DNA of 64,000 nt, from NCBI RefSeq assembly GCF_016859285.1, contig NC_053414.1, forward strand, positions 2,338,017-2,402,016. The letters run 5' to 3'. Source of the DNA: Xiphias gladius. Taxonomy: Eukaryota; Chordata; Actinopteri; Istiophoriformes; Xiphiidae. Positions 4,164-37,100 of this stretch are shown in pieces (position 1 is the stretch's first letter; each line of letters begins with the position of its first letter). A model generated the notes under the pieces. It had not been told where the DNA came from, made no database searches, and worked only from the letters and a program-made list of their open reading frames with translations. The translations under genes were made by a program, and so were the position numbers.

Positions 4164-18428
<14,265 letters not shown>

Positions 18429-20698: not shown

Positions 20699-23600
20699 TC
20701 AGCGTCTCAGTCGGAGGAAGAAGGCGTGGCGGCACTCTTTGCTGTCGACGGGGTAGTATTTATCATAGAAGTCCAGGATGTACTCCTCCGCTTTGAAACC
20801 GAACTTCTGGTACAGCAGCATGGCGGGATTACTGGCCGACACGTGCAGTGTGACGTCCTTCCCCATACACGTCTGAAAAACACAAACACCACAAAGATGT
20901 AGCCAGAAACACCAACACATCCAGCCCCGCTAACAAGTAAACCAAGCGTTTAAACTCTCTAGAGTCAGGAACTCCAGAGTTCATCTGTTCTCGTCTGATA
21001 ACCAGCGTTACCCGAGGTCAGCTCGTCACCTTCGACTCGTCAGGTTGACTCGTTGCTTTATTTGGCTCATGAGGTCAACTCAGCACGTTACTCCACTTGT
21101 AGGATCGACTCGACTCATGAGGTCGATTCATGGCGTTTCTCTCGGGATCAGAGCCACTTGCCAACCCGAGACCGGAGTATTGCACCGGTTTCAGTGATGG
21201 TGGAGCAGCAGCTTCCATTAGGTCCACTGAATATAAACAAACCCAGGATGCATCAGCGTGACACTAAAGATCACCAGTAGTGGACTGGGAAGAAGTTCAC
21301 TTCACAGGAGGCAAACTGGAAATGCTGAACATTAAATTACTTAATGATGTTCGAACATGGACCGTAGCGCCAACTGTTGAAGGTTCTTATCTGTATTACA
21401 ATTCTGACCAATCAGGAACTACGACCAACTTAGGACCAGTTCTGGATACCCCATCCTCAGGTAGCTTCCATATCATTATTTGCCTTGAAAATTTCCTCCG
21501 TTTGACCACTGACACCATCGATGGACCATCTGACCTGCAGAGTCTCACCTGGATGAGATGGTAGATCATGAAGGTGCCGATGCCGGCTCTCCTCCACTCA
21601 GGGTGGACCAGCAGGAAGGAGATGTAGGCCTCGTTGTACTTTACATCCGGCACCATGAAACCAAAGCCGATCACGACTTTCTTATAGAGGACGACCACGC
21701 TGAAGTCCGGGTACTGCAGACACTCAGAGAGGTCCACACCTGGAGGGGGACGGATGAAACAGGTGGTAGATTTGGAGAGACAGATTCATAGCAGGACGGT
21801 TGTAGGTAAGTAAAAGGATGCGTCTGTGCTACCTGGCCAGAAGCTATCATGACACATGGCGTTGACGGAGCGGATGTGGTTTGGGCGGACGTAGCAGTAG
21901 TCGATCGGGGCGTCAGGCTCAGGGACCCAGTCAGGCTCTGCTCTGTGAGGGTAAGCTCTGATCTCCGCCAGCAACCTGAGCTTCACCGGACGACTCTCAT
22001 AATCCCTCCTGAGGAACAATCACAGAGAAGTGCTACTGCTGAGGAGACAAAAGTCCTGAAGCCGTCTCTACCTGACGGAAGGTTTCACGACGCTCTTTAC
22101 CTGATGAACGGTTTCAAGATGCGCGAGGTATATGGACTCTTGATGCTCTGGTCCACACTGCTTTCTGCTCCCATCAGCCGATGCCAGAAGGACACCGAGT
22201 TTTGCTGGACTCCCCTTCTGCTAGAGAGGTTGGTCTGCACACAAACACATTTATGTACAGTCTACATCAGTGGTTCTGTCAGCGTCCTTCAGGGGGTTTC
22301 AGCATCCCAAACAAAACCAGAGGCTAAAACCACAACTGCCAAACATTTGCAGTCACAGACAAATTTTATTCAAACATTTCCCCGTTACTCTTTCAGTTTA
22401 AGAGCAGTTTCTTTGATGTTTTGTTGTTGACAACAGCCGACCTTGGTGGAGCAGTGAGAACAATGTTGGCGGAGAGTTCGAATGATGTTCAGACCAACTC
22501 TGCTTACACAATGATATTGTTAAACCAATTTACTACTTGATACATCTTCTGCTGTATTACGGCGTCTGGTTGGATTCTGTAGTAAGAAATATTTTCACTG
22601 TGTAGTGGGCTCAGATTAACACAACACAGAGAGACAAAGCATTGATCAGCTGCCATGGCATCAACTTCCATCATACAACATGGATGATTCAAGGAGCAGA
22701 CTTAAAGAAATCTCGTCCTGGGGTCACACTACTTCCTGAACATTAACCATTTCCTGCTGAGACGGGGGTGTAAGGCATCACATAGTGTAGGGAGATTTCA
22801 TTCCAAAGTGTAAACTGATGTGATATTTCACATAGACAGTGTTAGTTTGACTGAATGACACCAGGATGAACGTTGAAAGTACCTGGAAGCGATCAAGAAT
22901 TCGCAGCTCCTGGCTGTTGGTGCAGTATTTTCCCATGATTCCACCTCCCATCAGTGTCCCCACCTCCTGGGCGCCATAGATACCTCCCACCAGGCTGAGG
23001 GTGGCGCTGACTGCCCGGTCGATGTCCAGCAGGGGGAGCCCCCTTTGCCTCTTGGCCTGGCGGACCAGCAGCTTCCTGTGAAGGCGTTTGGCCTGCGGGG
23101 TGACGGCTAAGGCCAGCGGGCAGGCATCCAGCCGCCGCAGCAGCATCCTCTCCTCGTAAAGAGTGAGGGGGGCGTAGCGAGGACTCTGGGAGACGCCGCC
23201 AGCTCTGTCTGTTTTCTCTGGATGCGTTATCCTCCTCCGCTCGGGCCCTCCGGCACCAACACACCCCCCGGCAGAGAGAGACGGACCTTCGCTTCGTGCC
23301 GCTGGCTCCTCAAAGTCATCCTCACGCTCGCGGCTTTCATCGTCCTCGCTCTCCGCTTCACGTTTGATGTGAGGTGGCGCTGGTCGGAGCTTCTTGCGGG
23401 CCGCAAGGCTGGCGCTGGGAGGAGGGATGTACTCCATCCCTGGGTCGATCATCCCCTCTGTCTCCATCTCCTCATCGTCTGGAGGTCAAGGCAGCACAGA
23501 GGACACGCCATCAGCGCTGACATCATGTTTAAACAACACAACTACTCACAGTGGACAGAAAACACCTGGATGAGTCGGACGTTCACTCACCGTGGAACAG

Positions 23601-26600
23601 CGCCTGTGGAGGCATGGCATCGGGGATGAGGTCCGCCTCTGACAGCAGGCTGGGTGTAGCTGAATGAGATGCTGGTGTCCCCGGGGCGGAGAAGTCAGGC
23701 GAAGGCGATGGTGACGGACTGGTGAGCGGTGTTCGGTCTGAAGAGCTGAGGGAGGAGAAATCAATGACCTCACCTTTCTCCAGGATGAGATCGGGCCGGC
23801 GCCCGGTGCTCCCGCTGCGACCTCCGCCCAGCTTGACGGGCGTGGAGGAGGCGCTGCGGTCGGTGTAGCCTCCAACCGCTTCCTTCTGAGCCCGCCGGAT
23901 GTCTTTGGCCTCCTGCGTGCGAGAACGCTTCTCCTTCAGCTGCATGGCGTTCTCCACAGGGTTTCTTGCGCCACGTTTTCTCAGACCCTCCACAGTGATG
24001 ATCGGGTCCACTGCAGGTTTGGAGACTGCAGGGAAACAACAAAATATCAGCTGAGTTTATTTTACCTGCAGGGGTTACCTGAAACCTTTGACCAGAGAGC
24101 TCCTGGATGAATCCAAGCAAAGGTTACCCTTAGTCTTAGTGGTGGATTTGTCCACCTCTGGTCTCAGGGTCGGAGGTCTGTTCTGGACCAGCTTCCACCA
24201 GCCGGGCTCACCGAACTCCTGCGCTCCTGATCGGAAGAAGGTGGGACTACCGACCGACAGACAGCCGGCCACTGTGCTCCACCATGTCGACGTCTTCTTC
24301 CTGCAGAGTGAGACAGTCACCAGGTCAGAGACTCGTTGTCTCCTGGACTAATCTAGAAGAGTAGAGCAGCCGCCACCCATTTTGTTTTTTAATTCCCCCA
24401 GACATGTTTTTATATATAAATATGCTACAATTCAGATTTGTTTAACATGGTCTTCCCACATACAGCAGGACGCACATCTACGTTGACCTCCTCACTGAGA
24501 AATTCCGGACCTATGAATATTCAAATATGTAAATATCAATGGCTTCGTGCCCCGCCCACCACCGCTGCTCACGCTAGGTTGACCGGTAACAGAGCAGAGA
24601 GCGTTAAGATGGCTACTGTTGGAGGAAACATCGAGAGATTCAGCCACATGTCTCAGCCTCAGTCAGACCCAGACTCAGATGAGGAGTCTGTCTTGCACCA
24701 AAACCAGCAGACGTATCAGAATGAATTTGTTCATGTTGTTTGTTAGCTTGTTAGCTCGTAACTGGCAGCGGCTGACGCGGGGTTAGGGGTACCTACAAGT
24801 CTGCTCTTTGCTAGGGTGTCAGGTTACAGTTGCCCCACCCCGCAGGTTGATGGGATTGGCTCCCCAGATGTGAGACGTATGAAACCTACACCGCGTGAAT
24901 CCGTGTTTCTGAGACCGTCATTGCTACACTGCAGTTCCAAGGAGGAAATACTCGGCCACGAGGCTGACTGCTTATTTCGCTCATCATATGTCTGGTATCA
25001 TAGAACAAACACCACATGGACATGCTAACAACGTTCAAAACTTGATTTTCATTGGACGGGGTCTTTAAGTTTTTATTCTGAGACTGAGAAGTGGGGATTG
25101 CAGGCAATGAGGGACAAGGAGGAAAAGATGCTGTCAGAAAGAATAACATATTAATTACATAATAATATTATCAAGGTTATTTATTTAAAAATAAACAAAC
25201 TTGAATTATCCTGTAACTAAATATTACCTCCGCTTTCAAACATTGACTTACAGCTAGAGTTAACATGTCTATATTTAAAATTTAGAGTGACCTCGTTCCC
25301 AGCAGGAAGTTCCAGTGTCGGCCAATAAAAGCACAGATGTCTTCCTTCCACCTGAAGTAACCCTGCCGACCCGTCCCCTCCAGGGACAGATTGTACATGG
25401 CCAACATCACCACCTGACCCACAGAATACAGGAAAAATCAAACAGAAATAATCAAGTATTTTTAAAGCTGCAGCAATGCCTCATGTTTGAGGTGAGTATC
25501 TGTTGTCTTTACTGTTTACACTGAGTAAAATCAAACTAAATCGTTTGATCCATCGGCCCGTATTGATCAGGACACTGATCAAACGTGTATTAATGACACT
25601 ACACGAGTGTCAAACGAACCAACTTGACCACATAGAGAATCGTCATTTTTTAAAAGTTCATGTTATTAGTGTGAAATCTTTAAATCTGCAGGAATAAATA
25701 ACAACAGTCTGATATATTTATGACGTATAAATATAGAAACAGGCTTGGAATCACAGGAAACTAAATTCTGCTGCGAGACGTTCTGCTGCCGGTGGATGAG
25801 GTTCTTCAGAGAAACCACATAATGAGGAGAATTTAGTTCCACACTGACAAGAGTGGAGAAGATGATCAGAGACTGTGAATCACATCAGGGTCGGATTTAT
25901 TCTGCTCATTTGTTCGCAGCTGGTAGATGAAAAAAAAAAAAAAAAAAGAAGCTCTGTAACTTGCAATTAAATGTTCAAATGCAAATAATGGACTGAAGCT
26001 ACTCTGTTCTCAATGCTTCAGCTCATGTATTATTATTATTATAACTCTTAACCAACTTAACAGACCTCTGCAGCTCTCTGACATTTAAGTTGAACAAAGT
26101 TTGACTAATAGTTTTTATACCTACGTTTCTGAGTAAAAGTAAGGAATTTTTTCAAAGTTGGACTTTTTGCAGTTTGATGAAGAGTCTGTGGTTGCTGCCT
26201 GTCAGCAGCAGCTGTGTACCTGCTGCCAGGTGAGTCTCATCCTCTCGAAGCTCTCCTTGCCGTCCTCGGAGCAGTCAGAGCAGATGAATTTGAAGAAGTT
26301 GTCTCCTTTCAGGTAGCTGGGCTGTTCGCTGCGGAGCTGAGCTGCAGACAGACAGAGCGTTAGAGCAGATGTCGGACTGGGTGCCTCCGCCAGACACGAG
26401 GCTTTTACTATTTTAGGTTAATTTGCCGATCGACGACCAATATTTGATTCGATTCTGGATTGGTCCCCCGACATTATGCAGCTACAGTTCGCACTTGACA
26501 CAACAGACCAGAATCAGGATTAGTGAAGAGAATGATATATGTTTGACAGCCAATAGCGCTGTGTAAAATCACATATCCTGCCTCACTGCTTTCCAATCGA

Positions 26601-28146
26601 TTCCTATAATATTTGTTTTGTGTCCTATAGTATTACAGACAGGGTGTCAGCGTGGATCTGCGTTGGAAGGTCTGGGTGGGATTTAGTCAGACTCTCTTTA
26701 ACCTCAGCATCAACAACATACTGATGCTTTCAACAAAATACAACATGATGCAGGTGTAGTTCACCTGCTAAATGTCGCTTAAAGAGAGGCAGTTTTTAAA
26801 AAACCTGAAGAAGCTGCGCTCACGTCACTGACTATTTGTTTAGTGGTTTTAGTGTTTTGCGGTTTGTCTGGTTTGTAATTATTCTTTGGCACTGTGCTGT
26901 TATGGGCAGTGACAGTCTGAGAGGCAGACAGGAAACATGGGGGGAGAAACGGGGGGAGGACACTCAGCAAATGTCTCTGGCAGGGATCAGACCAGGGACG
27001 TTGCAGTTACGGGGTATGTGCTTTAACCACTAGACTACTCTTCAGTCAGTGTTGCAACAGAGCAGGGCGGAACAAACATCTGGATTTATAGCAACTACCA
27101 TATGAATCAAAGTATGACTAAGGATCCTGATCTGGTTCCTGTGGCTCGACTTGGGGCATCCTTACTTTCATGTCAGGGTCTGGATCATCATTTGTCGTTG
27201 TGTCTTTTGTTAAACAAACTACGACATGACTCATCCGCAGCATCTGAGTCGTCTCCTCGTTCTCATCATATTTTACACACGTTCGAGAGAAAACTCCGCC
27301 ACCAGCTTCATGTCCCTGTGATTCGCATGCAGAGCTGTCAGGAAATTGACTGTACGGCCACGAAACACAGAATCAATCAGTGTAGATTTTCAGCGGATAA
27401 ACTAAAAGACAGTGAGCGTCGGCCCCCGTCCTCCAGACAGACTCCTGTCAGTACCTGGTGTGTGGCTCGCTTTATGAAACAGTGAAGTGCAACACTGAAC
27501 ATCAACGTGACGAACTTTAAAAAGTGGACCGGGTCCCTCCTCTTCACTCACTCTCCACTGTCTCCAAACAAGCCACTTCACAATGGATGTACAATATGTA
27601 GAATGTAGAGCTGGAACAATTAATCGATCAATCAGATCATTAATCAACTGATCCTCAGATTTGATATTTTTCTTTGTCATGCACGACGATGGAGTGAATT
27701 TCTTTGGGTTTTGGACTGTTGGTCCTTAGAAATTGTTAACGGGCATTTTTTAAAACAATTTTCTGGCATTTTATAGACAAAACGATGAATCAGTTAGTTG
27801 CGGCTCCGGCACAGAGTGAATCAATGAGCCTCCTGCTCTGTCACAGTCTGACTCAGAGAAACGGAGCGCCCCGATTGGCTGTCTCACCTGCAGGTATCCA
27901 TTTGTGGCAGCGGTCGCAGTAGAAGGACATGTCCTCGCAGGCCCAGCCTCCGTCGGCCTCCTCACCCACGTCGCTGGTCAGAGAGTCTCCGCTCTGGTCA
28001 TGTGACAGATCCACGGATCCCTGATCCTCCGACTCCACGATCAGCAGAGTCTCCCCCTCCACCTCCCCCTCCTCCAGACCCTCTGAGGCCGACGTACAGG
28101 CCGCCTCGTCCTCACCCCCACCCAGCTGCTCGCCGCTGCTGTCCAT
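20699..28146 (-). CDS. kat14: Lysine acetyltransferase 14 (CSRP2-binding protein), 10 coding exons
   Basis: Coding exons, 5' to 3' on the minus strand: 28146-27888, 26341-26220, 25413-25292, 24300-24128, 24025-23591, 23478-22883, 22234-22101, 22008-21833, 21739-21549, 20872-20699. They join in phase to 793 residues (human about 782). Visible in order: acidic N-terminus with SEGLEEGEVEGETLLIVESE; two CxxC pairs (FYCDRC at about 77-80, FICSDC at about 106-109); the tryptophan-rich block TSTWWSTVAGCLSVGSP; DPIITVEGLRKR; a serine-rich segment (SSSDRTPLTSPSPSPS); and a C-terminal GNAT domain with the acetyl-CoA loop RRAGIG inside HPEWRRAGIGTFMIYHLI, ending FFLRLRR. The family is the acetyltransferase subunit of the ATAC complex and acts in the nucleus on histone H4. 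A TTTAAT at 20480 (ATTAAA on the minus strand) is a possible poly(A) signal. The start is 2 bases after an acceptor, so transcription must begin upstream, probably at pet117. Confidence 0.95.
24380..25135. other. Unassigned interspersed sequence in a kat14 intron, possible DNA transposon remnant
   Basis: This block of the intron 24301-25291 has a base composition unlike its flanks. It includes GCCCCGCCCACC, a plus-strand frame with MATVGGNIERFSHM and an acidic run (SDPDSDEES) at 24608-24744, and a run toward TTGGACGGGGTCTTTAAG at its right side. The TTTAAAGACCCC-type end and short acidic frame resemble remnants of fish DNA transposons, but I do not recognise a family and found no inverted ends. 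Confidence 0.3.
26830..27046 (-). mobile_element. tRNA-derived SINE (minus strand)
   Basis: On the minus strand the head reads TAGTCTAGTGGTTAAAGCAC (A-box region) followed about 30 bases later by GGTCTGATCCC (B-box region), then a body with GAGAGACA/GACTGTCACT-type phrases and an A-rich tail near 26840. This is the usual build of tRNA-derived SINEs in teleosts, with its RNA polymerase III promoter in the head. It lies in the 1.5-kb kat14 intron 26342-27887, where no other feature was recognised. Confidence 0.65.
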
Positions 28147-28148
28147 CC

Positions 28149-28292
28149 CTGAGCTTCGGGTACACAGTAATACACGGGGACAGGTAAACATGAGGACAGT
28201 CAGAAACGTCGCAGGAACACAACTGTATAGGTAACACAGGACAGGAATCTCACAATAACACACCACAGGTGAACAGGTGTATCAGTTTTTAC
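28149..28292 (-). other. Predicted 144-nt intercistronic intron joining pet117 exon 2 to kat14 exon
   Basis: Five bases after the pet117 stop the minus strand has GACAG|GTAAAAAC, a good donor. The kat14 ATG is preceded by AAGCTCAG|GG, a fair acceptor. Removing the 144 bases would give one mRNA carrying pet117 and then kat14, separated by 7 bases (GACAG plus GG). Confidence 0.6.
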
Positions 28293-28297
28293 CTGTC

Positions 28298-29928
28298 TCA
28301 GTGTTGGTCCTCTGGGTGGAGCTCTGTCTCTCGGCGTTGTCTCTCCTCCTTCAGGTGTCTGGTCAGAATCTTCTGCTCCTCCAACCTCCTCAGATTCTCC
28401 TTCTTCCTCTCCCACCGCTCCAGATCCCTGACTACACCCTCGTGGAGACGCTGGGGGATAAAAAACACACAGAATAAACATTAAATAACCAGACTCAGAG
28501 TTAAGTTACCACGACTCAGTGATTTTGGTTTAGTTTTACAGTGTAAAAGGTCCCGCTCACTGCATATGATGGTCAAAGTTTTTAACAACCAAATTTACGG
28601 GGTCCTTATCGAAAAAGTTCATGTGTTAAACTATTTTAGAATTAGATTATTACCACATGAAGAAGCCAACACGCCAGGCTCCATTTAAAAAACATCTAAA
28701 GTTATTCTAATCAGTTTAAATAAGCATGGTTTGGTTTTACACTGACTGCAATGTCCTCAGAGACTCAGTAAAGTCAAGACAAAGCATGAAACACACACCT
28801 TCCCTTCAGTACAGTAACCTTCAAAATAAAGTTACACTTCAGGATGGCAGGACCATGTTTGGTAACAAGGTGAAGGACATTTTGTACTGAAGTGAAGCAG
28901 CAGCTGTGGTCATCAGTTCAGAGAGGAAATACCAAGGTAGAGGTTTGATCTGAGTATGTAAAACACTACGATTACAACAGAGCAGAACAGATTCATCAAA
29001 CTGTTTTACTCACGAGGTTTGACCTCGTCAAACTGTGCACTGCTGCCGTTAGCTGCTGTCAGACAGGGAGGATGTGTTCACTACTTTGTCTTGTCAAAGT
29101 AAAAACCAGGAGACCTGTTAGGGCTTCAAACCCTGAGAAAGATCCCTGCTGCATCGAAATGTTGACTGTTTAATAGATGTCTTACAAGCTTCAGACCTCA
29201 TTGTTTCTACACCTTCAAAATCCTGAGCTAAGAGTTGTTAGTCACTCACCATGCTGTTTTTGGTTTTCAGTACTTATGCAGCATTAAGTGGCTTTGGCCA
29301 ATATAAAATGTAAAATGTATATAACTACCTACCTATATATAGGTAGGTGGTTTGTCAAGTGTTTGCAAGCGCAAGAATTTGTTCCAATACTGATAATCTG
29401 ACAATTACTTTCTAAATTGTGGATTGCCTTATTAAAGAACTGTTTCAGCTCTTTTACAGTCTGCCTTTTCTGTATCCTAACACTGTGCGTGTTGTAATTA
29501 GTTTGACAAATTTCCTGAAAACAAGGCAAAGAGCTCGGATTTGAGTGAGTTTCTATTGTGAAAAGTCTGTACCGGATGTGACTGGCTCGCCGTTCAGCCT
29601 GACCGACAGCCGTTTTCGGTGTTTTCGGTTTGTGCAGTTAACGTTACCAGACTCAGCTCCGTGTGGTGAACGTTACAGGGCAGCAGCTTCTCCGTTAAAC
29701 ACCAAACACCTTCAGTTTTTAGCTTTACACGGTAAAACAGTCCGTTGACTTCCTGTGACCTCCCGCTCCGCTAACCTGACCGCGGCACTGCTAACTGTTA
29801 GCGTTAGACCGGCTCGGTTCGGCCCGCTGTACCTGTCGGTCCCAGTTCTGCTTGAGGTGAACGGCAGCCACGGTGCCTACGGTCAGAACCACAGAGAGCC
29901 CGAGGACCACTTTAGAGGCTGTAGACAT
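28298..29928 (-). CDS. pet117: Protein PET117 homolog, mitochondrial (2 coding exons)
   Basis: Exons: 29928-29833 (32 codons) and 28450-28298 (50 codons plus stop TGA at 28300-28298), joined in phase 0 across a 1.4-kb intron with GTACAG donor and CCCCAG acceptor. The 82-residue product (human 81) starts MSTASKVVLGLSVVLTVGTV, a single hydrophobic N-terminal segment (about residues 6-25), followed by a charged helix with RLHEGVVRDLERW and RKKENLRRLEEQ. PET117 assists cytochrome c oxidase assembly at the mitochondrial inner membrane together with PET191/MR-1S. The gene lies directly upstream of kat14 on the same strand, only 151 bases from stop to start codon, as in human. Within its intron (28451-29832) the sequence is ordinary; a 22-bp palindrome sits at 29327. 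Confidence 0.93.
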
Positions 29929-30075
29929 CACGTTAGCCTTAGCTTAACGTTAGCCAGCTGCTAACCACCTCTGCCGCTGCTGCGTCTTCTTCAGGCGCTG
30001 GTTTGCTACGTGAAGCGTCTGAGTAGCGCCCCCACCCGACCGGCACCGGTTAACACACCGCCGCCCTGTTAACGA
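29929..30075 (-). promoter_or_regulatory. GC-rich promoter region of pet117 (and probably kat14)
   Basis: Upstream of the pet117 ATG on the minus strand the sequence is GC- and CpG-rich (CGCCCCCACCCGACCGGC, CCGCCGCCC). Combined with the CpG-rich intron start down to about 29560, this marks the likely shared promoter. No TATA box is obvious. Confidence 0.45.
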
Positions 30076-30360
30076 CAAGTTGAGGCCCATCAGTCACAGA
30101 CGGGACTGATGAAGTGGTGCAAGATGTTAAAACTGTTAAAACTATTAAACTGGTTGTTGGTGAAACCAACTAATATACAGAAGAATCAATATATATGTAT
30201 AAAGTGAGGATACGTATGTATAGTTTTTTATTTCTCAGTGAACTTCATCCAAAGTGTAGAAAATAGAAATAAACTAAATCAGATCAGTATTTGCACAGTT
30301 TTTCAGGTTCTTGGCAGGTAGGTTGTTCTAGCATCTTAGAGAAGTTGCCATGGTTCCTCT

Positions 30361-30744
30361 GTGGATTCAGTCTGTCTCAGTGTCCTCTGTCTCTTCACGA
30401 GATCCCAGACTGACTCCGTGATGCTGAGATCAGGGCTGTGTGGGGTTCAGACCATCGTGGATTCAGTCTGTCTCAGTGTCTTCTGTCTCTTCACGAGATC
30501 CCAGACTGACTCCGTGATGCTGAGATCAGGGCTGTGTGGGGTTCAGACCATCGTGGATTCAGTCTGTCTCAGTGTCTTCTGTCTCTTCACGAGATCCCAG
30601 ACTGACTCCGTGATGCTGAGATCAGGGCTCTATGGGGTTCAGACCATCGTGGATTCAGTCTGTCTCAGTGTCCTCTGTCTCTTCACGAGATCCCAGACTG
30701 ACTCCGTGATGCTGAGATCAGGGCTCTGTGGGGTTCAGACCATC
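30361..30744 (-). repeat. Four 96-bp tandem repeats derived from a Tc1-like transposase segment
   Basis: GTGGATTCAGTCTGTCTCAG starts copies at 30361, 30457, 30553 and 30649, an exact 96-base period with a few substitutions (CCTCTG/CTTCTG, CTGTGT/CTCTAT/CTCTGT). On the minus strand each unit encodes the same 32-codon stretch containing SPDLSITESVWDLVKRQ, with a stop codon in the MV*TP context. That is a degraded SPDLNPIE..W motif from the catalytic region of Tc1/mariner transposases. Confidence 0.9.
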
Positions 30745-30830
30745 TGCTGCAGGACTCCTTGTTCTTCATGACTCTGGCTGTAGGTTCGGGCTCGTTGTCC
30801 TGCTGCAGGAGGAATCTGGGAAGTTAGAAA
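30745..30830 (-). mobile_element. Tc1-like transposase fragment flanking the 96-bp repeats
   Basis: On the minus strand this part reads QQDNEPEPTA, a remnant of the QDND.KHT block that holds the second catalytic aspartate of Tc1-like transposases. It runs directly into the SPDLSITE repeats. The copy is broken by stops and lacks both ends. Confidence 0.65.
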
Positions 30831-31259
30831 GCAAGAAGACATTGAAACAGCGAACTACAAGTAATGAACAAACAGCTCAAGTGGCTGGCTAAAAATAATG
30901 ATGAAATAATTAGCTCCAAGTGAGGGGTAACAAATAATATGATTGCATTTAGTATTTGTATTAACCCGGTCAGCCCATTGATCATTCAAATAATAATAAC
31001 ATTTAAAATTCTTTATTATATTTGTAACAGGTAATTGTTTTTTATCATTAAAATAATGAAAAAATAAATAACTTCTTAATTATTTCTGTGACAGAAAAAA
31101 ACATTTTTCTTCTAATATAAAGATTTGACCACTCATTTTATTGAAAATAAGACCTTTCAGTCATAAAAGGTCTGAATACTCAGTGTTTGATAGATTAAGT
31201 TTTTGTCTTTTTCTGTTTTCATAATTTTCAAATCAGAACAATCAAAATAAAATTAGTTC
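30831..31259. other. AT-rich intergenic spacer, no feature recognised
   Basis: This AT-rich stretch between the Tc1 remnant and the rrbp1 promoter shows no coding potential, repeat or RNA gene that I recognise. Confidence 0.4.
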
Positions 31260-31481
31260 AATCTGTAGTTTTAAGCCCGAGAACAACATCTCCCATGGGG
31301 CCAGTGGCCGAGCTCGTGCGGATGGGCGGACGTCCTCCCGCCTCCGCCAATCCGAGAGGCGAAGTGTCTGCGAGTGACGTCCCCGCCGACCAATGAGGGG
31401 CCGCGCTGCCAGCGTGGGCGGAGCTTGTGGTCCCGTTAAGAGAAAGTGCCACGACTCCGCAGCCTGACCGACTCCGCGGAG
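31260..31481 (+). promoter_or_regulatory. rrbp1: Promoter and noncoding exon 1 of rrbp1
   Basis: CpG-rich sequence (GGGCGGACGTCC, CCGCCTCCGCC, GAGGGGCCGCGC) with CCAAT at 31389 leads to a donor ACTCCGCGGAG|GTGAGA at 31481. The next plausible acceptor precedes the rrbp1 start codon (CCTCCAG at 34129 or CTGTAG at 34140), leaving a 2.6-kb first intron. The ACGTCC/GACGTC content is compatible with CRE/ATF-like sites but proves nothing. Confidence 0.55.
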
Positions 31482-31942
31482 GTGAGAAAACCTCTCCAGA
31501 ACTCAGGTAAAGGCTTTTCTTTCACTGCTGCTGCTTCGCGGAGAAGCAACGGGCTGAAACTAAACGCTAAATGTCCGGGGGACGATGAAAAGCTCGAAGG
31601 TTTGGGGAAAATCCGTGGATTTTATACTTTAAAAAAAACCAGACTGCAAATTGACAGGAATGATGATCATATTAAACTTCTACCGAGAAAACGTTCGTTT
31701 AACTTCAATCCAAAATTTAAAATGGAAACATCTGGACAATATCACAGGAAAACTCAGTCAGAAGATGTGGCTCGTCTGAGTCCGTTAAAGCTACAGAAAA
31801 ACGGTTTGGTGTGAATGAACATCGGACTGTTGGAGAACGACCCGTAAAAGGCCGAAATATTCAGTGTCGGAAACGAAGTAGCCTTTGGGTTAATGAGGGG
31901 ATGTTTTTAATCAGAAGAAACCGACCTGAGTTATATAACTGC

Positions 31943-32191
31943 AGTGTGTGTTTGTGTGTGTGTGTGTGTGTGTGCGTGCGTGCGTGCATGTGCATGTGCG
32001 TGCGTGCGAGCGCGCGCTTGTACGGCTATACATTGTGAGGACCAGTTTGACTCAGACCTTTTGCAGTGAGGACATGTTGTCCGGTCCTCACACCCTCAAC
32101 GGGCTGTCTGAGGGTTCAGGTCAGAACCAGGTTTAGGTCAGGGTTAGGGGCTAGGGATTGCATTATGTCAATGAGTACAAGTTTGCGTGCG

Positions 32192-34154: not shown

Positions 34155-37100
34155 ATGGACATCTCCGACCCGCAGACCCTCGGCTTCATTGTCTTTGGAG
34201 GCTTCATGGTCATCTCGGCGGTGGGCATCGCTCTCGTCTCCACCCTCTCCATGAAGGAGACGTCGTACGAGGAGGCTCTGGCCAAACAGCGTCGCGAACT
34301 CGTCCAAGCCCAGACCCAGAGGTCAGAGAAGAAGAAGAAGGACAAGACTTTGGAGAAGAAGAGCAAAGCCAAGAAGAGGGAAGACCGACCCGATGGAAAG
34401 TTCTCAGAACCAGGCAGCGATGGCAGCGAGGAGCCTGTGGTGGTGACCTGTACAGAACCAGAGTCTGACCCAGAACCTGCTGCAGAACCTGATGCTGCAC
34501 CTGAACCCACACCAACACCTGAACCAGCACTAGAACCCACTGTGATCACCTCTGTCAAGTCTCCTCCAGCCCCTTCACCGAAGGAGAAGAAGAAGAAGTC
34601 AGCCCGGATGGAGCCAACTGCTGTGGCGGAAACCGTTGCTAAGGATGTTCTGGTCCTGGCCGTGGCCCCGGTGGTAGATGTTCCTCCGGTAAATGTTGTC
34701 GCTGAAGTCATCAAAGAACCGTCTGCTGCCAAAACTGAAGAACCCAAAGAGACCTCAAGCAAGAAGAAGAAGTTCAAGAACAAACCTGAGACAGGTGAGT
34801 TTTTAACTTTCAGCTGGAGTCATTAACATAAATGTTTAAGTGTTCATCAGCCGGTGTTGTCAGATTTTTCTTAGAGTCAAATATCATATATCGATCCCTC
34901 AATGGACCTCAGATGTATGATACCGGTTGGGCTCCACTGTAAAATAATGTTTAATTAGATTACTGTTGTCCTGGTTTTTCTATTAAAGCTTCCATCACCA
35001 AACCTACTGCTATCGCCCCGGTGCTGCCGTACGGCGAGCTGCTGTCCGCCGTGTCCAACGTCATGCTCAGTGACGACGAGAGGCACAAACTCATACAGGT
35101 CCTGAACCAGAAGGCTGGGGTCCGCCACGATTCCTGGCAGCCGGTAGATAAACACTGTGACAACGCCAGCAACCAGCTAACAGTAGCAGCTAACAAGTAG
35201 TGAAAGAGTTAAAAAAACAAACAGCGTACAAACAGCACACTGCATAATGTTAGCGGTTATAGCTAATATTAACAACTACAAACTCCTCCAATAGTAGCAG
35301 TATACATTGACAAAGTGAATACACAAACACTGTCACAACACCTTTCACCAGCTACCAGCTAACGTTAGCAGGTAGCAAATACTAGACTGTACACAAACAG
35401 TACACGATTTCATGTGATTGCTAATACAATCATCATATCACATAGTTAGCAGCTAGCACAGAATAAAGCCATATATACACTGTCACAATGTATGTGTGCT
35501 CAAACACCGGCTAAGGTTGGGTAGCACATTCCCAGTATATGGTGATACATATTGTGTACCATTCAAAAGCTAATGCTAATAGTTAGTGGAACTTTTCCGA
35601 CTGCTAGCATTGTGAAATACTGTTCACACCTATAGATTTGAGTGGTAATGACTAGGAATCTTCTTAAAGATGTTTCTGAAAGCAACTGGGTGTTAAATAA
35701 TAATTCGGTGCCTGATTTATAAACACACATGACTGCTTCACGTCAACCAAAGTCTGGTATTCGAGGTAACTAAACACAAATTATTGCTCAGTTTTTACCC
35801 CATAGCCAACCTGCTTCTCATACAGCGTTAACTTAGAACTAGATATTCATTCAGTCTGATAATTATAGTCTTGTAGTAACTGCTTTTGTCATCTTAAGTC
35901 TAAAGGTGTGGACATTTTCTATCACCCCTTTAAAACCCCATGTCCTTTTAATTAAAAAGCTTTTAAATATATCTCATCAAACAGTTATATTGGGTCTCTG
36001 TATGACTCCCAGGCCCGTCAGAAAGGAGACCTGCTGTCCACTCTGAAGAAACAGCTGGAGGAGAAGGAAAAGCTTTTGACTGCTGAGCAGGAGGTCACAG
36101 CCACCGCCAAGAGCCGCCTCCGAGAGTTCAGCAAGGTGATCCAGGCTGCGCTCTGATCATCAACCATGTGGTCTCTGTGAGATTTATCCCTTCAGTTCTG
36201 TTGGTTTGTCCAGTGGACAACAATGCAACTCACAAAGAAATGGTACCAGGACACCTTAAAATATCGTGTTACTCTGAAGGTCCGCTGAGATACGACGACA
36301 AGTTAGTAGAAAGACATGAATATGAGTGAACAAATGCAAATGTTCTTGACAGACTGAAATGGAAATTTCTTGACATGATTAAAAGTATCTGAAACAAGGC
36401 AAAGGACAAAGAACTGTGAATCGGCTTCAGGGACAGGTGCACTTAGCCCCACCTATATATTTTAGTACAAATAAATTTAAAATAAATTTTGTAGAGTAAC
36501 AAGTCATCTTCAGACCTCTAGTTTATCATAAGAAGGTCAAATTGAACTTGCTGCGTTTCCTTCTTCAGGAACTTGGTGCAGAGAAATCCAAGATGGCATC
36601 CTTGGAGGCCAATTTGAAGGCGGAGCTGAGTGCACGGAGTCAGGAGGTTGACACCATTAAGACCAGAATGCAGACCACTGAAAAGGAACACTTGAAAAAC
36701 ACCCAGCAGCTCAACTCGAAGGTATGGTCTAGCTAACTTTAAATTATTTAGAGGCAAATCAATGCAAGCCTCAAGTCTCAAGTTTTCGAGTGCAGGTCTA
36801 AATCAAGTCACAACTCCCAAGGGAAAGTTTAAGTCAAATCACAAGTCCACTAGGGCAGCTCCAAGTCAAGTCTGAAATCCTGTCAAAGCAGGTGTCATTT
36901 CAAGTCTATAGTCCTTGGCAGTAGGTCCAAGTCAAGTCGCATGTCTTTGAGAGCAAATTACAAGTCTAAGGGGCAAATATAAATCAAGCCCCATGTATCT
37001 TTGAGACCAAGTCAAAGCCAACTCTCTAGCCCCTCTGGACACGTCTAATACAAGTCTCCTGTCTCGTCCAAGCAAGTCTCAAGTCCTTCTTGAAGGGACA

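Follow-up and report, generated by a model that had tools for sequence, protein, structure and literature searches.

A candidate bicistronic pet117-kat14 transcription unit in Xiphias gladius

The window analysed here is a 64,000-nt stretch of Xiphias gladius DNA (NC_053414.1, positions 2,338,017 to 2,402,016 of the forward strand). It carries two intact open reading frames that encode distinct known proteins, PET117 and a KAT14-like protein, arranged in tandem on the minus strand. The PET117 frame specifies 82 residues and is divided between coding exons at 29928-29833 and 28450-28298, the second range taking in the stop codon. The frame of the KAT14-like protein specifies 793 residues and runs from 28146 to 20699 across ten coding exons. 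The features of the locus are as follows, in window coordinates:

29600..30200, minus strand: CpG-enriched region around pet117 exon 1, a probable shared promoter, from CpG observed/expected
29833..29928, minus strand: pet117 exon 1, coding part, 96 nt, with the ATG at 29928
28451..29832, minus strand: pet117 intron 1, 1382 nt, from junction sequences and the unbroken frame
28293..28450, minus strand: pet117 exon 2, which includes the stop codon TGA (28300-28298) and GACAG ahead of the donor
28149..28292, minus strand: putative intercistronic intron, 144 nt, predicted from splice-like signals
27888..28148, minus strand: first coding exon of kat14, GG followed by the ATG at 28146
20699..26341, minus strand: kat14 coding exons 2-10, encoding the remainder of the 793-residue protein
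26341-26220, 25413-25292 and 24300-24128, minus strand: kat14 exons 2, 3 and 4
24025-23591, 23478-22883 and 22234-22101, minus strand: kat14 exons 5, 6 and 7
22008-21833, 21739-21549 and 20872-20699, minus strand: kat14 exons 8, 9 and 10

The joined PET117 protein matches Pfam family PF15786 (86.7 bits, E 1.1e-24), and its best match among solved structures reaches only E 0.094. At its C-terminus the KAT14-like protein has a GNAT acetyltransferase domain (PF00583, E 1.2e-12). Its N-terminal region weakly resembles PHD-finger proteins and the winged helix of ASH2L, the latter at 20.8 bits against a Pfam cut-off of 25. In solved structures, the full protein has distant matches to PHD/winged-helix and acetyltransferase chains, the best at E 8e-10, and the portion encoded by the first kat14 exon has a best match of only E 0.2. 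The 793-residue protein is presumed to be KAT14 from the order of its domains and from its sequence; no library match bears that name. Its exons were located with peptide words, 20 of 21 of which could be placed, and one exon, 22234-22101, was identified by direct inspection of the DNA. A PET117 pattern scan of viral contigs returned 17 pattern matches, none of them a relative, which is no surprise for an animal gene.

The boundary between the two genes is compact. Past the pet117 stop codon, the sequence GACAG (28297-28293) leads into a donor, GTAAAA, which begins at 28292. At the other side of the interval, an acceptor sequence, CCGAAGCTCAG (CTCAG), ends at 28149, and the bases GG (28148-28147) precede the kat14 ATG (28146-28144). 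The preliminary description had placed the donor five bases past the pet117 stop, the kat14 ATG two bases past an acceptor and seven bases between the joined reading frames; the first two positions are confirmed in the DNA, and the 7-nt distance from the pet117 stop to the kat14 ATG follows from the splice geometry. The kat14 ATG would then stand at offset 256 from the pet117 ATG, in a different frame, which rules out read-through or a PET117-KAT14 fusion protein.

Splice-site strength was scored with approximate vertebrate matrices, and ranks refer to the 11 sites of the joint gene model. The intercistronic donor scores 3.92, fifth of 11, and an equal or better donor occurs once per 1103 nt on the minus strand. 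Donors of at least 3.9 lie within 10 nt past a stop triplet in 26 of 3162 cases on the minus strand and in 23 of 3140 on the plus strand; within 20 nt, the counts are 64 of 3162 and 48 of 3140. These chance counts, like the acceptor count given below, include the pet117-kat14 site itself. The donor is better than chance. The acceptor at 28148 is the doubtful element of the junction. In the plain matrix it scores -2.0, the lowest of the 11, and an equal or better site is found once per 59 nt. A composite acceptor score places it at 8.48 (eighth of 11, once per 308 nt); this score is an ad hoc combination of branch point and pyrimidine tract with approximate weights, devised after the site was seen. 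By the composite score, an acceptor as good lies within 6 nt ahead of 24 of the 894 minus-strand ATGs. If independent, the donor and the acceptor would coincide in about 2 in 10,000 cases, a value that depends on a post hoc composite score and on an acceptor for which the plain matrix gives no support. The claim that kat14 needs an upstream exon is weaker than first stated, since it depends on this acceptor, which is poor in the plain matrix.

The pet117 promoter had been proposed as the nearest one available to kat14, and CpG content agrees with this in part. CpG observed/expected is 1.10, 0.87 and 0.93 across 29600-30199, compared with 0.12-0.69 in 28200-29599, and the enrichment extends into the 5' part of pet117 intron 1 (23 CpG in 333 nt). 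The intercistronic interval is poor in CpG, with 4 CpG in 144 nt and a ratio of 0.33 in 28200-28399. The region of the first kat14 exon has values of 0.63-0.69, which may reflect coding composition. Equally high values occur in parts of kat14 intron 1, at 27200-27399 (1.08), 27600-27799 (0.92) and 26400-26599 (0.91), and also at 31200-31999 (0.95-1.21), between pet117 and an RRBP1-like gene. Because similar values recur elsewhere in 26000-32000, CpG was dropped as a unique mark of the pet117 promoter. The CpG pattern points to the pet117 start and leaves room for other starts. The stretch at 31200-31999 could itself be another promoter. Four tandem copies of a 96-bp unit, 98% matching, occupy 30361-30744, immediately upstream of the pet117 start region with its CpG enrichment.

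The start codons differ in context. AUG contexts were scored with approximate weights and ranked as percentiles among 896 minus-strand ATGs. The pet117 AUG, with G at -3 and U at +4, is middling (-1.28, 56th percentile), compared with a stronger spliced kat14 AUG, which has G at both -3 and +4 (+1.0, 89th percentile). The 253 nt between the pet117 and kat14 starts contain no other AUG. This AUG-free stretch is permissive for scanning and is not evidence of it: synonymous resampling of PET117 yields no AUG in 49% of cases (P 0.49), and AUG depletion as a sign of selection for scanning was rejected on that basis. Just 3.5% of 252-nt windows of kat14 lack an ATG, a difference from pet117 that is probably due in part to the lack of an internal Met in PET117. 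Two further ATGs, at 30090 and 30248, fall in the leader if transcription begins above them.

Reinitiation and leaky scanning had both been offered as routes to the second frame. The sequence favours leaky scanning, reinitiation being the less likely route given the 82 codons of the first frame and the 7-nt gap. A review reports the prediction that upstream ORFs longer than 55 codons prevent reinitiation, although it also describes the process as particularly efficient in mammalian cells (PMC4705651). As a separate observation, the spliced junction (28352-28293 joined to 28148-28099) has a predicted fold of -34.4 kcal/mol (z -2.72), with 3 of 200 shuffles as stable. The kat14 start sits inside this stem-loop, and the fold, computed for this one sequence, is noted as an observation only. 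Rfam returned no matches at gathering scores.

A bicistronic pet117-kat14 mRNA, by any splice form, is somewhat probable on this evidence. The best reading is more specific: the pet117 promoter would drive kat14 on a bicistronic mRNA that has the 7-nt junction, and the kat14 start would be reached mainly by leaky scanning. It is held tentatively, at just under an even chance. In this mechanism, the CpG-enriched pet117 start region would drive pet117 and kat14 as one transcription unit, with the entire pet117 frame as the first cistron of the main kat14 mRNA. Splicing would take out the 144-nt interval and bring the pet117 stop to within 7 nt of the kat14 start. Most ribosomes would make PET117 from the first AUG, in its middling context, and a fraction would scan past it, encounter no other AUG for 253 nt and begin KAT14 at the stronger one. 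Were pet117 the only frame translated, exon junctions in kat14, lying past the pet117 stop, would target the mRNA for decay; stability of a bicistron thus implies translation of kat14. Translation of kat14 in an early round would clear the exon junctions past the pet117 stop and so shield the mRNA from nonsense-mediated decay. An obligate form of this arrangement, in which every KAT14 protein in this animal is made by leaky scanning over the frame of PET117, a cytochrome-oxidase assembly factor, is rather improbable. If it were true, lower start-site stringency would trade a mitochondrial assembly factor against a chromatin acetyltransferase, and respiration would be directly coupled to histone acetylation.

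The best-surviving alternative, although unlikely, is that a common or neighbouring upstream promoter gives rise to two kinds of mRNA. The pet117 mRNA would end early, at a non-canonical or intronic poly(A) site, and kat14 mRNAs would start within pet117 exon 1 or farther upstream, with the complete pet117 frame absent or untranslated. Such kat14 mRNAs could come from splicing of pet117 exon 1 to kat14, from a start downstream of the pet117 ATG or from a separate upstream non-coding exon. Variant poly(A) hexamers are present in 28292-26342, and the CpG enrichment that enters the 5' part of intron 1 and reappears at 31200-31999 is consistent with additional starts. In human, PET117 and KAT14 presumably have annotated 5' ends that almost coincide, together with a PET117 mRNA of its own, which would also support this alternative. 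The canonical signals AATAAA and ATTAAA, however, are absent from the 1951 nt between the pet117 stop and kat14 exon 2, though not significantly: 0.82 are expected, and 44.5% of simulations have none (P 0.445), for which reason their absence was also rejected as proof of a common 3' end. The direct splice from exon 1 to kat14, which the preliminary description had raised, is disfavoured on two counts. The exon 1 donor is weaker than that of exon 2 (1.02 vs 3.92), and skipping of exon 2 creates a 67-codon ORF that overlaps the kat14 start out of frame, so this form would also depend on leaky scanning.

That pet117 and kat14 are independent genes is improbable. In such a case, kat14 would have a start site of its own, within the interval or within pet117 intron 1, and the pairing of donor and acceptor would be a coincidence. 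The low plain-matrix score of the 28148 acceptor is compatible with a coincidence, and pet117 intron 1 contains CCAAT, TATA-like and TCT-initiator-like motifs. A scan for 11 promoter motif classes does not discriminate: the interval has none of them, the sequence upstream of pet117 has 2 and most of pet117 intron 1 has 3. The interval is low in CpG, which argues against a start within it, and a donor 5 nt past the stop is unlikely by chance, as the 10-nt count given above indicates.

Another improbable reading is a bicistronic mRNA that is not spliced at 28148 and therefore has a longer spacer, either because the 144 nt are retained or because a rival acceptor inside the interval, with its exon start at 28222, is used. 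In both forms the leader of kat14 would be longer and would contain an in-frame ATG at 28191, 45 nt upstream of the kat14 start; the open frame of kat14 reaches back to 28281, and the context of the 28191 ATG (-1.17) is near that of the pet117 ATG. An isoform retaining ATG 28191 would extend KAT14 by 15 residues. The plain matrix prefers 28222 (2.24) to 28148 (-2.0), but the composite score reverses this order (6.98 vs 8.48), and use of 28222 leaves an intron of just 70 nt.

Gene lists from pig (PMC13247619, PMC10034349) and human (PMC3012649) put PET117 next to KAT14/CSRP2BP; thus, the PET117-KAT14 neighbourhood is probably old. Vertebrate mRNAs with two conserved full proteins are few, and one survey reports 14 human bicistronic transcripts (PMC13303939). 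The main text of that survey, as distinct from its dataset, has no mention of PET117, KAT14 or CSRP2BP. Similarly, a paper on fly gene models names neither Atac2 nor Pet117 in its main text, as distinct from its supplement of polycistronic genes. A shared PET117-KAT14 mRNA is not described among the literature matches listed, in a search that lay outside supplements and most subscription papers. Among those matches, only one paper combines PET117 with the word "bicistronic", which there refers to mitochondrial transcripts (PMC9810596). A pet117-kat14 bicistron would be a rare but known arrangement, the pair itself being apparently undescribed.

Several known systems resemble the predicted one. 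Human RPP14/HTD2 encodes a protein of nuclear function and a mitochondrial protein on one mRNA, reportedly conserved for 400 million years (PMC5932603). The predicted pet117-kat14 mRNA likewise combines nuclear and mitochondrial proteins. However, the mitochondrial ORF of RPP14/HTD2 is located downstream, in the 3' UTR, whereas here the mitochondrial protein is upstream and the nuclear protein downstream. PYURF-PIGY, MIURF-MIEF1, ASDURF-ASNSD1 and STREMI-SLC35A4 are human bicistronic transcripts, and the STREMI protein is mitochondrial (PMC13303939). As in pet117-kat14, a protein-coding ORF lies upstream of that for an unrelated protein. In this survey, 50% of the downstream ORFs are intronless, whereas the downstream ORF here, kat14, has 10 coding exons; the human pairs are bicistronic transcripts, whereas the pet117-kat14 transcript is predicted. 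In green algae, mutation of bicistronic mRNAs supports leaky scanning, and one tested construct has a 14-nt inter-ORF distance (PMC11892635). The algal bicistrons share with pet117-kat14 a weaker first start context, a stronger second one, few AUGs before ORF 2 and a short gap. They belong to a distant lineage, however, and were tested by experiment, whereas pet117-kat14 is predicted and its AUG depletion is within chance.

If correct, the bicistronic arrangement would link a mitochondrial assembly factor with a histone acetyltransferase. Work on either gene, whether annotation, knockouts or expression studies, may then unknowingly affect the other.

Beyond the two genes, a large coding exon with a start codon lies at 34155-34826 on the plus strand. 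It belongs to the RRBP1-like gene, which is divergent from pet117, and matches the Pfam family Rib_recp_KP_reg (E 1.5e-29). Long low-complexity tandem arrays occupy 6508-7168 (TCTC-rich), 10636-11073 (ACAGCCTGTGGTCT-rich) and 15138-15592 (CTGCTACTA-rich), and the long ORFs that run across these arrays look spurious.
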